Source: Bacilli bacterium (GTDB lineage Bacteria; Bacillota_I; Bacilli_A; RF39; UBA660). Taken from it: 37,040 bases of DNA. Numbering within the stretch: the stretch's first letter is position 1; the number at the start of each line of letters is the position of its first letter. The translations under genes were made by a program, and so were the position numbers. This document shows positions 14,113 through 17,250 of the stretch, in pieces. A model generated the notes under the pieces. That model saw only the letters and a list, made by a program, of their open reading frames with translations, was not told the origin of the DNA and did no database searches. Location of the stretch: positions 1-37,040 of the forward strand of contig JAFRIS010000020.1 of the NCBI GenBank assembly GCA_017432665.1, in the 5' to 3' direction.

Positions 14113-15201
14113 ATGAAAGGAACTGGTGGAGATAATCTAAAATTAATTAGCAAAATTGTGATTGCATCAGCTTTAATATCATATTTAATGAGTAAGGGAA
14201 CAGTAAAGTTTACTTTGGAGAAATATAATGTTGATAACATTTATAATAATAAAAACTTAAAAATATCTGAAGAAAGAGCCGATGAATTATTTCAATTACT
14301 TGAAGAAGAAAGTGGTAATTATAATCTTGATAATGAGAGAGATTTGATTTTAACTGCCGCTATTGAAAATCCTAATCTAAGTAATGTAGAAAAAAAGGTT
14401 ATTTATAACTTAGTAGATTTAATTGAAGAAGTACCATATATTGATAAAAGAGTAGCTTATGCAAACTTAAAAGAGCTTGATATTTTATATGACTATGAAA
14501 ATTATAATGGTACGCATTTAGGTGATTATGTTTATAATACTAATGAAATAAAAATTTATTATGATACTCCAAATCATGATGTCTTAATTCATGAGTTAAT
14601 ACACAGCTTATTCTTAAATATTTATACTAATAAATTACCTTATTATTTTAAAGAAGGAGTAACAGAATTACTACAAGATGAGTATTTTTCAGATAATCCA
14701 TATTTTGAAGAATCTAGTTATCCCTATGAAATAGCCATGGTAAAAATATTATGTGATATGGTAGGATTTGATGTAGTTTTAAAGACTTATACAACAGGTG
14801 ATATGAGTGAAATAGAAAAGGAGCTAAATAAATATATGGTTCCAGAAGAAACAAAAAAATACTTGGAAAACATTGAAATGATGTTTGATCAATTTGAAGA
14901 AAAAGATATTACAGATTTTGATTATATGAGTAATTTTTTAGATTATACTAAGGCTTTCTTTGAAAAGAAGTATTTGAAATCAAATAAGATTTATGAATCA
15001 TATGAATATAATAAAGAATTAATAATAAAAATGGTATATGGTAATTCCGGCAATAACTATGTGGAATACTTAGAAGAAAATGGTTATTATGTTAAACCGT
15101 ATTTTTCAAAAAAGCTAAAAGAAAAAGATAAAGAATATCATTTTGAACATTTTGAAGACAATGAAATTGATAAAGCTTTAAAAAAGTATAAATTGATATA
15201 A
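14113..15201 (+). CDS. Membrane-anchored HExxH protein, probable metallopeptidase
   Basis: A 362-aa protein with an N-terminal hydrophobic segment (about 10-26) and an extracellular-type, acidic remainder. HDVLIHELIHSLF contains HExxH (His160, Glu161, His164), and YYFKEGVTELLQDEY supplies a candidate third zinc ligand or gluzincin-type glutamate (Glu181 or Glu185) about 17-21 residues later. This pattern (HExxH, then EGxxE) is common in zinc peptidases of the gluzincin clan. The assignment is by motif only; the family and substrate are not recognised. RBS GAGAGGGGA precedes the start. It is the gene immediately before the OLE RNA. Confidence 0.72.
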   Translation: MKGTGGDNLKLISKIVIASALISYLMSKGTVKFTLEKYNVDNIYNNKNLKISEERADELFQLLEEESGNYNLDNERDLILTAAIENPNLSNVEKKVIYNLVDLIEEVPYIDKRVAYANLKELDILYDYENYNGTHLGDYVYNTNEIKIYYDTPNHDVLIHELIHSLFLNIYTNKLPYYFKEGVTELLQDEYFSDNPYFEESSYPYEIAMVKILCDMVGFDVVLKTYTTGDMSEIEKELNKYMVPEETKKYLENIEMMFDQFEEKDITDFDYMSNFLDYTKAFFEKKYLKSNKIYESYEYNKELIIKMVYGNSGNNYVEYLEENGYYVKPYFSKKLKEKDKEYHFEHFEDNEIDKALKKYKLI

Positions 15202-15220: not shown

Positions 15221-15249
15221 TTGACATTTTTGTAAATTTATGCTATAAT
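15221..15249 (+). promoter_or_regulatory. Strong promoter of the OLE RNA
   Basis: Perfect TTGACA (15221-15226), a 17-bp spacer and TATAAT (15244-15249) preceded by TGC. Predicted transcription start near 15256, immediately before the 5' strand of the closing stem of the RNA. Confidence 0.92.
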
Positions 15250-15255
15250 TAACAC

Positions 15256-15878
15256 AGAATTGATGGCACATTATTCTAGTCAAATGCTTTATTAGGAAGA
15301 CGAGCTTAAAAATTCGTTAAAAGGCATATCTATGAAACCTTTGGTGTCTGCTTCTTACGCCCAGTTTGGGGTGGATGCTGGAGATGAAGGAAGTTGGGCG
15401 ACTCGTAATGGCATACGAATCTCGACCCAGTTTCTGTGGAGACCAGTTATTGTAGCGAAGCTATACGTACCATGCTGATGCAGTGTTACGAAACTGGATA
15501 AAACCTGTATTGTGGCGAAAGCTATGTGCAGCGTAGCCTGTCTTGAGTGGGAATCTTGGGATAGATGATCTTTCTTAGTATAAGCGGCCACTTATATTAA
15601 GTATTGCGTCTTGAAATCATTCTTGCAAAAAAGAACTAATAATAAAGAGTTGGTGAGGAAATCTCCTAGAGTGTAGTTCACAATAGGATTGTGGTGGGCA
15701 CTAAGTGGTAATCAAGTCGTATGTTTGGTAACGGCATATTGTTTTCTTTAAAGGGGAACCGCATATCTGGTAACGGATTTGTAGAAATCAGGGAAATCCT
15801 ACTTGACCTAAGGCTCAAAGTTAACTATTGTGATAGCCACACAATTACTAATTAAAGTAGTTTTACTACTTTTTTTTA
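15256..15878 (+). ncRNA. ole: OLE (ornate large extremophilic) RNA
   Basis: A stretch of about 620 nt without a credible protein gene, with higher GC than its neighbours and many inverted repeats, bounded by a perfect promoter and an intrinsic terminator. The ends pair: AATTG..GGC (15258-15267) with GCC..CAATT (15836-15846). The size matches OLE RNA (about 610 nt). The decisive context is the next gene, which encodes an OapA-like membrane protein; OapA is the known OLE partner and is usually encoded directly downstream. OLE forms a membrane-located ribonucleoprotein linked to stress and Mg2+ homeostasis in Bacillota. ROOL and GOLLD are similar in size but do not sit beside oapA. Confidence 0.85.
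15854..15878 (+). terminator. Terminator of the OLE RNA
   Basis: AAAGTAGT (15854-15861) pairs with ACTACTTT (15865-15872) and continues as a T run to 15877. Confidence 0.85.
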
Positions 15879-15887
15879 TGTTATAAT
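15879..15887 (+). promoter_or_regulatory. Extended -10 promoter of oapA
   Basis: TGT-TATAAT (-10 at 15882-15887) starts right after the OLE terminator T-tract. It leaves no room for a leader before the ATG at 15894 and supports the start at 15906. Confidence 0.6.
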
Positions 15888-15905
15888 ATCGACATGGAGA
15901 AGAAT

Positions 15906-16496
15906 ATGAAAAAGAAAGAAAATGAATTTAAAAGTTTAGTTGAAGAAACTAGAAAAAAAGAAAAGATAAAAAAAGAAAAAGTTAATGTTAAATGGATAAT
16001 TACAATAATAGTAGTATCATTTGTAATTTCTTTTTGTTTATCATTTATTGCGAATAGTACTATTCCACATCTATCTTTGATATTTGGAATAATTATTACA
16101 TTAATATTTATTTTAATAGGTATTTTATTTGATATCATTGGAGTAGCGGTAACTACTGCTGATGAAGCTGTATTTCATTCGATGAATTCCAGAAAAGTAA
16201 AAGGAGCTAATGTTGCGGTTAAGTTTAAAAAGAATGCTGATAAAGTATCAAGCTTTTGTTGTGATGTTATTGGAGATATTTGCGGAGTAATATCAGGTGC
16301 TGCTGGTACTACAATTGCTGCTATTTTAATAACTAAGTATCATTTTAATGTTTTATTAGTTGGACTTTTGGTAACAGCAGTTATTTCATCTTTAACAATA
16401 GGGGGAAAAGCTATAGGTAAAAGTTTTGCTATTAATAAGAGTGATATTATTCTCTATGAATTTGCTAAGTTCATATCTAATTTTTATAAAGGCTAA
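15906..16496 (+). CDS. oapA: OLE-associated membrane protein OapA
   Basis: This 196-aa membrane protein has a Lys-rich cytoplasmic N-terminus (1-29), then about four hydrophobic segments. Residues about 78-140 (GVAVTTADEAVFHSMNSR, then KG and a CCDVIGDICG helix) resemble the DUF21 domain of CNNM/CorC-type Mg2+ proteins, the family OapA has been compared with. Asp120 and Asp124 form a DxxxD motif; as I recall, the equivalent DxxxD is functionally essential in Bacillus halodurans OapA. OapA binds OLE RNA and places it at the membrane. The start at 15906 has GGAG 6-7 bp upstream; the ATG at 15894 precedes that site and has none. Confidence 0.85.
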   Translation: MKKKENEFKSLVEETRKKEKIKKEKVNVKWIITIIVVSFVISFCLSFIANSTIPHLSLIFGIIITLIFILIGILFDIIGVAVTTADEAVFHSMNSRKVKGANVAVKFKKNADKVSSFCCDVIGDICGVISGAAGTTIAAILITKYHFNVLLVGLLVTAVISSLTIGGKAIGKSFAINKSDIILYEFAKFISNFYKG

Positions 16497-16525
16497 TTTA
16501 CAAAAGGAAAACATTGTGCTATTAT
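16497..16525 (+). promoter_or_regulatory. Promoter of the kinase-like gene
   Basis: TTTACA (16497-16502), a 17-bp spacer and TATTAT (16520-16525) preceded by TGC; a perfect TATAAT also lies at 16523-16528. There is no terminator after oapA. Confidence 0.6.
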
Positions 16526-16553: not shown

Positions 16554-17225
16554 ATGGGTTATAGGTTGGATAATAAAGATGTAGATATTTCAGGAAAAAG
16601 GTTGACTAAAATTGGTAATGGTGGAACAGGAGACGTTTATAAATATCGCAATAATGCTTTAAAAATTTTTAAAGCAGAAAAGGAAACTCCAATTGATATT
16701 GAAACAGCTGAATATCTAACAACAATTTCTACTAATAGAGTCTTATTACCAATGAATTTATTGTTTTATAATAATACCTTTAGAGGATATACTTATAAAT
16801 TAGTTTCTAAAAGAGGATCAGGTAAAAAGATAACTACTATTCCTAAGGATGAATTAGTGGGTAATATATCTATTATTGAGAGAGATATTGAAACATTAAG
16901 TAGTAAACAAGTATTACTTAATGGTATAGAACCATCTAATACTATCTTTAATGGTAATTTATATTTAACAGATCCTTGTCAATATACTAAGTTAGATAGT
17001 TTATCAACAAAAGAATTGGAAAGATTAAATAAATATCAATTTCATTTATTATTAGTTACAATGATAAGTTCTGAATTAAAGAAAAGTAATATTTCATCTA
17101 AGTTAGAACGACAAGTTAAAGAACTATTATGCTTGAGAGATGATAATGATAATACTAGTGATTTCTTAATAGATGTTATTGATAAAAATGATTCAATTAA
17201 ACAATTTGTAAAGAAATTACAATAG
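16554..17225 (+). CDS. Protein kinase-like fold protein, probable pseudokinase
   Basis: A 223-aa protein with an N-terminal kinase signature: Gly-rich loop IGNGGTGDVYKY (20-31) and ALKIF with Lys37 at the VAIK position. LNGIEPSNTIFNGNLYLTDP (122-141) aligns with the catalytic loop and DFG segment: Asn129 and Asp140 (metal binding) are kept, but the HRD-type catalytic Asp is Gly124 and the following Lys is Glu126. The C-lobe is short. This suggests an ATP-binding pseudokinase or a divergent kinase. No membrane segment. It is preceded by GGAGGAG and ends in a terminator. Role unknown. Confidence 0.72.
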   Translation: MGYRLDNKDVDISGKRLTKIGNGGTGDVYKYRNNALKIFKAEKETPIDIETAEYLTTISTNRVLLPMNLLFYNNTFRGYTYKLVSKRGSGKKITTIPKDELVGNISIIERDIETLSSKQVLLNGIEPSNTIFNGNLYLTDPCQYTKLDSLSTKELERLNKYQFHLLLVTMISSELKKSNISSKLERQVKELLCLRDDNDNTSDFLIDVIDKNDSIKQFVKKLQ

Positions 17226-17250
17226 ACAAGTACATAACTTGTCTTTTTAT
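17224..17250 (+). terminator. Intrinsic terminator
   Basis: AGACAAGT (17224-17231) pairs with ACTTGTCT (17237-17244), followed by T. It overlaps the stop codon. Confidence 0.85.

Follow-up and report, generated by a model that had tools for sequence, protein, structure and literature searches.

Does a gut-associated lineage of Bacillota keep the OLE ribonucleoprotein, and if so, which of its parts? The question is raised by a structured non-coding stretch, followed by a membrane-protein gene, in the 37,040-nucleotide piece of DNA analysed here in full (the window). OLE is a large membrane-bound bacterial RNA; to our knowledge, it belongs to the largest well-conserved RNAs for which the chemistry is not known. 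Our reading, to which we assign a probability of about 0.9, is that the window carries a genuine OLE gene of full length together with that of OapA, its obligate partner, that the RNA forms a strong transcription unit of its own, and that the core of the particle consists of the RNA and OapA.

The RNA matches the Rfam OLE family across the entire model. The cmscan match to RF01071 lies at 15247-15856 on the forward strand, scores 415.1 bits (E 9.8e-119) and spans model positions 1-616 of 616, the gathering threshold of the family being 50 bits. This bears out both the identity and the coordinates proposed in the first-pass annotation. At gathering thresholds, the full window contains seven Rfam matches, namely this OLE and six tRNAs. 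The window copy is the sole OLE in the source genome (1.19 Mb, 71% complete).

The gene downstream of the RNA is, judged by its sequence, oapA. It occupies 15906-16496 on the forward strand (frame open from 15894), and its assignment to the OLE-associated membrane protein draws on phmmer, alignment and an AlphaFold2 model; 15906 is a likelier start than 15894, with GGAG upstream both here and in a homologue (L003). In one phmmer search, the window protein matched 150 frames among the sampled loci. The OLE-adjacent OapA of Halalkalibacter wakoensis is matched at 113 bits (E 1.1e-33; 36% identity) and that of Clostridium acetireducens at E 1.8e-41, and this direct similarity to OLE-adjacent proteins of Halalkalibacter, Clostridium and others upholds the earlier naming of the 15906 protein as OapA. 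The description of a DUF21-like membrane protein with a DxxxD motif is also sound: nine residues are invariant in 20 aligned OapA proteins, including both aspartates of CxDxxxD, and the match to the CNNM/DUF21 family itself is weak, under the cut-off (17.5 bits). In the AlphaFold2 model (pLDDT 84.8), the nearest solved fold is the CNNM protein MtCorB (7m1t; E 2.8e-3, probability 1.00); a PDB sequence search with an OapA profile returned nothing up to E 1.

In a set of 59 genomes, OLE is present in 29, all among the 36 of the window's genus (its own genome included) and none among the 23 of the class's other families. Across the phylum, it is present in 14 of 392 genomes, all 14 from the window's family; within this family, 98 of 145 genomes carry it and 47 give no match. 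OapA is present in five of the six OLE-bearing congeneric genomes tested (in the sixth, G013, the OLE is cut by the contig end) and in 0 of 7 congeneric genomes without OLE. In two of the 26 intact congeneric OLE loci, oapA does not directly follow the RNA: at one (L023) it lies about 2.5 kb further along the same contig, and the genome of the other (L016) carries it on another contig. In the wider family, genome G503 has an OapA-like CNNM match with no OLE match listed. The window's clade is well supported in the OapA tree (64 rows, 100/90). The label 'gut-type' given to the genome at first inspection fits its relatives, as the congeneric genomes include 'Sheep_Duodenum' RGIG5711 and members of the RUG and hRUG series, and also UBA3789; RUG stands for rumen genomes.

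For comparisons beyond the genus, the locus sample consists of the matches listed by one pattern scan, and 'other Bacillota' is no census. Gut and other loci were first split by nhmmer score (gut above 400 bits). Six low-scoring loci (L074, L081, L102, L145, L148, L156) were moved to the gut group according to the OapA tree; they entered the promoter, terminator and P13 counts, and the count of the P6 mimic (see below) kept the original grouping. Seven loci (L107, L112, L139, L143, L146, L150, L154) were listed by hand as gut, each scoring above 400 bits anyway. Loci without an anchor were dropped, numbering (gut and other, respectively) 19 and 19 for P13, 14 and 19 for the promoter, and 8 and 2 for the terminator. 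Four contigs filed as Actinomycetota (L054, L113, L118, L155) carry OLE with OapA, and their OapA proteins form one clade (100/99); for OLE matches outside Bacillota, transfer or assembly error has been suggested in the available text of the 2024 survey (PMC11332333). Genome G449 has two OLE copies, one in a full-length locus and the other degenerate at its 5' end and truncated by the end of its contig (L185:2946-3414, L186); contamination, at 4%, could account for this.

The window RNA takes the known OLE fold. Covariation was assessed in 26 congeneric OLE RNAs, aligned with MAFFT and not fitted to the structure; the Rfam structure was carried over to this alignment via the window RNA. Changes on both sides of a pair occur in 70 of 155 pairs, against 37.4 in shuffles, and 0 of 500 shuffles are as high; 89.7% of cells are paired, against 40-48% when the partners are slid. 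Compensatory changes are seen alike in P7, P8, P9 and P13, labels that were given by matching the helix order of the model to the literature numbering. In the cmscan alignment, all on the forward strand, P7 lies at 15443-15497 (helix 5, where 8 of 17 pairs show a double change), P8 at 15505-15531 (helix 6 of the covariation analysis), the long P9 at 15540-15636 (helices 7-9, with a GGCC loop in 26 of 26 RNAs) and the P13 hairpin at 15761-15782 (helix 16, 96.6% paired), whose GNRA loop is GUAA (15770-15773). The L5 motif GCCCA is kept in all 26 RNAs and the L6 motif AAUGGCAU in 24 of them; counts of these 5' loops are given for the congeneric RNAs, several of the other OLE sequences being trimmed at the 5' end. 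The L5, L6 and P9 loops are described as dimer contacts in cryo-EM work (PMC12265935, PMC12286853, as available in part). Family match and covariation together place the window OLE in the full-length type, and it is apparently functional. A separate locus (L034:1501-2043) has an OLE without most of P9, including the GGCC kissing loop, in which P7 and P8 are retained.

The transcription signals suggest that the RNA forms its own unit. A promoter of the form TTGACA-17-TATAAT, with TG before the -10 element, lies at 15221-15249 (+) and agrees with the consensus at 12 of 12 positions, as the first-pass annotation had read it; the OLE transcript probably starts a few bases past the -10 element. The 37-kb window contains two such perfect sites, where shuffled sequences would give 0.06. 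The other one lies at 184-212, right ahead of the first long frame (211-999). The 12/12 promoter stands at a fixed distance ahead of OLE in 19 of 23 congeneric loci; among the loci listed, 44 of the 67 distinct ones from gut clades have it at that distance, vs 0 of 45 from other Bacillota. An intrinsic terminator, likewise recognised at the outset, lies at 15854-15877 (+) as a 7-bp stem followed by 8 T; the stem is weak, with two G-C pairs, and fails the 3-GC rule of the terminator scan. A hairpin with 5 bp or more and a T-run stands upstream of oapA in 20 of 24 congeneric loci, and among the loci listed a hairpin with a T-run separates OLE from oapA in 38 of 64 gut loci vs 6 of 55 others. The further claim, that oapA has its own promoter, holds in part: an extended -10 element, TGtTATAAT, lies directly past the T-run (15879-15887, +), with TGnTATAAT in 15 of 24 congeneric loci, but the promoter scan of the window found no -35 element for it. 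In H. halodurans, ole sits within the polycistronic transcript of its cluster (PMC12265935, available text); set against that single transcript, the consensus promoter and the terminator suggest that the gut clade has made OLE a strong unit of its own. An autonomous promoter of perfect consensus predicts a very abundant RNA, which is expected to be visible already in gut metatranscriptomes.

The set of partner proteins appears smaller than that known from H. halodurans. OapC (PF01248, L7Ae family), reported to bind the k-turn of OLE (PMC9723947, available text), is present in 0 of the 145 family genomes, the window's own included, and the positive control was found in B. subtilis. The query for OapB was a two-sequence profile of aligned Halalkalibacter and Lederbergia proteins, the former recognised via the PDB entry 7k9b, 'OLE-associated protein B' (E 3.3e-40). 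This two-sequence profile has no convincing match in the 145 family genomes: the best one (E 0.003, 17.5 bits) sits inside a 356-residue frame, and the matches up to E 0.1, in 12 of the 145 genomes, nearly all fall within long unrelated frames. At 71% completeness, absences in the source genome alone mean little, so the family count carries the point. The proposal that the lineage keeps the OLE ribonucleoprotein thus stands for the RNA and OapA and falls for OapC and, so far as the search of 145 genomes reaches, for OapB. With no OapC and probably no OapB in the lineage, the core of the particle would be the RNA and OapA.

Two RNA elements touch on these partners. P13 is described as the OapB site in H. 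halodurans OLE (PMC12265935, available text). Among the listed loci in which the anchor was located, 55 of 57 gut loci have the loop GGUAAC; none of the 45 others does, and each of these has GGCGAC, GGCAAC or GGUGAC. The retention of a GNRA loop where no OapB is detected suggests that it serves some other purpose. The sequence change itself was rejected as proof of OapB loss, since both GUAA and GCGA belong to the GNRA class and the difference tracks one lineage boundary. In P6 of H. halodurans OLE, one strand is reported to mimic the anti-Shine-Dalgarno sequence (PMC12054373, available text); the 3' strand of P6 in the window is GACCCAGUUUC, without CUCC, and among the loci listed the mimic is found in 0 of 69 gut vs 10 of 59 other loci. 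The gene for bS21 is present in 131 of 145 family genomes, including that of the window.

Within the family, OLE sizes are about 540-615 nt and about 470-541 nt, plus two RNAs of 378 and 381 nt (L183:2001-2378 and L184:2001-2381, from genomes G521 and G457). Both short forms lack model positions of about 74-282 (P4a, P5, P6, P7, P8) and the P9 tip, and retain the 5' end, P4 and the 3' half. They are identical in 346 of 384 columns (90%), their host genomes belong to different genera, and their flanks are unrelated, with identity at 184 of 343 positions upstream and 182 of 332 downstream. An intact oapA begins 4 nt downstream of each; OapA is thus retained although its site at P4a has gone with that helix. 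In the OapA tree, the reduced-OLE forms stand apart from the window's clade, and their branch to Clostridia is weaker (90/82). The two RNAs score 139 and 134 bits with the Rfam model; the 2024 survey applied a floor of 235 bits, so both may have dropped out of it, and they are not found in its available text (PMC11332333). That the OLE particle of the gut family is pared down to RNA and OapA, with two members whose RNA is even without P4a-P8 (378-381 nt), is a tentative proposal, and the odds lean against it. If these RNAs work, the conserved core would be domain 2 with P4 plus OapA, and the P4a site, the L5-L6 kissing contacts, the k-turn and the bS21 site would be dispensable. As natural deletion forms, they indicate which half of OLE to test first.

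If that proposal is true, the protein encoded next after oapA could be a new lineage-specific partner. This protein of 223 residues (16554-17225, +) has a kinase fold in its AlphaFold2 model (pLDDT 91.7), which Foldseek matches to protein kinases (E 7.5e-8) and which VIA-align superposes on a kinase with Z 12.1 (194 aligned residues, rmsd 4.1). It has no Pfam or NCBIfam match, and a PDB search with a kinase-like profile gave weak matches (best E 0.014), three of four being Bud32-type or linked proteins. Read by eye for the catalytic motifs of kinases, such as DFG, it keeps the Gly-loop and the Lys, has LNGIEPSN without D and has DPC for DFG; it is possibly a pseudokinase. No kinase appears in the main texts of PMC11332333 and PMC12265935, and a literature search on OLE RNA with kinase and operon returned no OLE paper on such a link. 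Upstream of OLE lie a glucosaminidase-domain protein (PF01832; 13396-14046), kept in many relatives, and a protein that matches no family (14113-15201), possibly a metalloprotease, which has HExxH and a later E (HELIHSLF...KEGVTELL) and is found upstream of OLE in several relatives, not in all.

The position of the kinase-fold gene is the main argument for a remodelled particle, in which lineage-specific proteins, chiefly this neighbour, would join RNA and OapA in place of OapB and OapC. Of the 25 congeneric loci in which oapA adjoins OLE, 23 have the gene right after oapA; elsewhere in the gut clade this holds for 9 of the 38 loci whose following frame was readable, and some loci have it in tandem copies (L072, L152, L153, L157). 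Beside the 378-nt OLE, a different kinase-like protein follows oapA (L183:2951-3679; Pkinase, 24.6 bits, under the cut-off). We nevertheless hold such a replacement to be unlikely: the kinase-fold family has matches in 52 of 145 family genomes and is unlinked to OLE in many, the window gene is preceded by a promoter-like site (16497-16525) and followed by a terminator (17224-17244) of its own, the catalytic residues of the window copy seem incomplete, and two loci (L015, L020) have ole and oapA followed by an ABC-F gene in place of the kinase-fold gene.

Much less probable is a decaying relic, that is, an RNA inherited recently in a shrinking symbiont genome, its function gone with the loss of OapB and OapC. 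The absence of OapC and the failure to find OapB in 145 family genomes would fit decay, as would the 47 of 145 family genomes without an OLE match, which mark the system as losable; compensatory changes throughout the RNA, near-invariant dimer loops, perfect promoters and loss jointly with OapA point instead to active selection. The probability that another large bacterial RNA (ROOL, GOLLD or similar) has been mistaken for OLE is practically nil. The size and the structured non-coding stretch would suit such an RNA, but the whole-window Rfam scan contains no large RNA other than OLE above threshold: ROOL and GOLLD, raised as competitors at first inspection, give no match, and OLE alone scores at the locus, 365 bits above its gathering threshold. 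The full-length OLE gene with OapA is the reading we retain.

Under this full-length reading, a consensus sigma-70 promoter would drive strong transcription of OLE as a separate unit, up to the intrinsic terminator, and oapA would be expressed by read-through or from a promoter of its own, the extended -10 element. From homology to H. halodurans and from the cryo-EM studies, the RNA is expected to form dimers, to associate with dimeric OapA and to be located at the membrane; it may act in stress responses, for example to cold, alcohol, excess Mg2+ or poor carbon sources. The particle would run without OapC and probably without OapB. A lineage with the full RNA and OapA, without OapC and apparently without OapB, separates the essential core from the accessories.

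Compared with known systems, the window locus resembles full-length OLE (RF01071) of H. halodurans and C. acetobutylicum in covering the whole model and in having P7-P9, the dimer loops, the P13 hairpin and OapA downstream; its P13 loop is GUAA, whereas theirs is mostly GCGA. It differs from H. halodurans in that its OLE has a consensus promoter and a terminator of its own, in that its family is without OapC and has no OapB found, and in that its P6 is without the mimic although the bS21 gene is present. A 2024 survey already describes OLE from gut clades that lack OapB and OapC, variant 1 being that of TANB77 and variant 2 that of RF39 (PMC11332333, available text). With both variants, as that text describes them, the window shares an uncultured gut organism, a small genome, OapA kept, OapC absent and, as far as the search of 145 genomes reaches, OapB absent too. 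Variant 2 was rejected as the class of the window RNA, because that variant is without P7 and P8 and the window OLE has both; RNAs resembling variant 2 (about 470-541 nt) do occur in the window's family, and those examined are accompanied by a different OapA lineage. The family is probably RF39 of GTDB, an assignment that its gut habitat, its small genomes and these variant-2-like RNAs would fit. The full-length class of that survey uses a cut-off of 390 bits on another model, and the window OLE was classed by P7, P8 and the long P9. On the protein side, the comparison is with the MpfA/CNNM magnesium transporters: CNNM proteins are the sole clear solved structural neighbours of the OapA model, but OapA (about 196-200 residues) is too short for the CBS and CorC domains that MpfA carries (PMC11332333, available text). 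MpfA as a substitute for OLE in the family did not hold up as a strong claim: full CNNM proteins (>130 bits) occur in 7 of 145 family genomes, not in the window's, and these are six OLE-bearing genomes and one (G441) of the 47 without OLE. As far as the available text of the 2024 survey extends, the window lineage is already covered there in outline, and the details of transcription, the neighbouring gene and the deletion forms are new.
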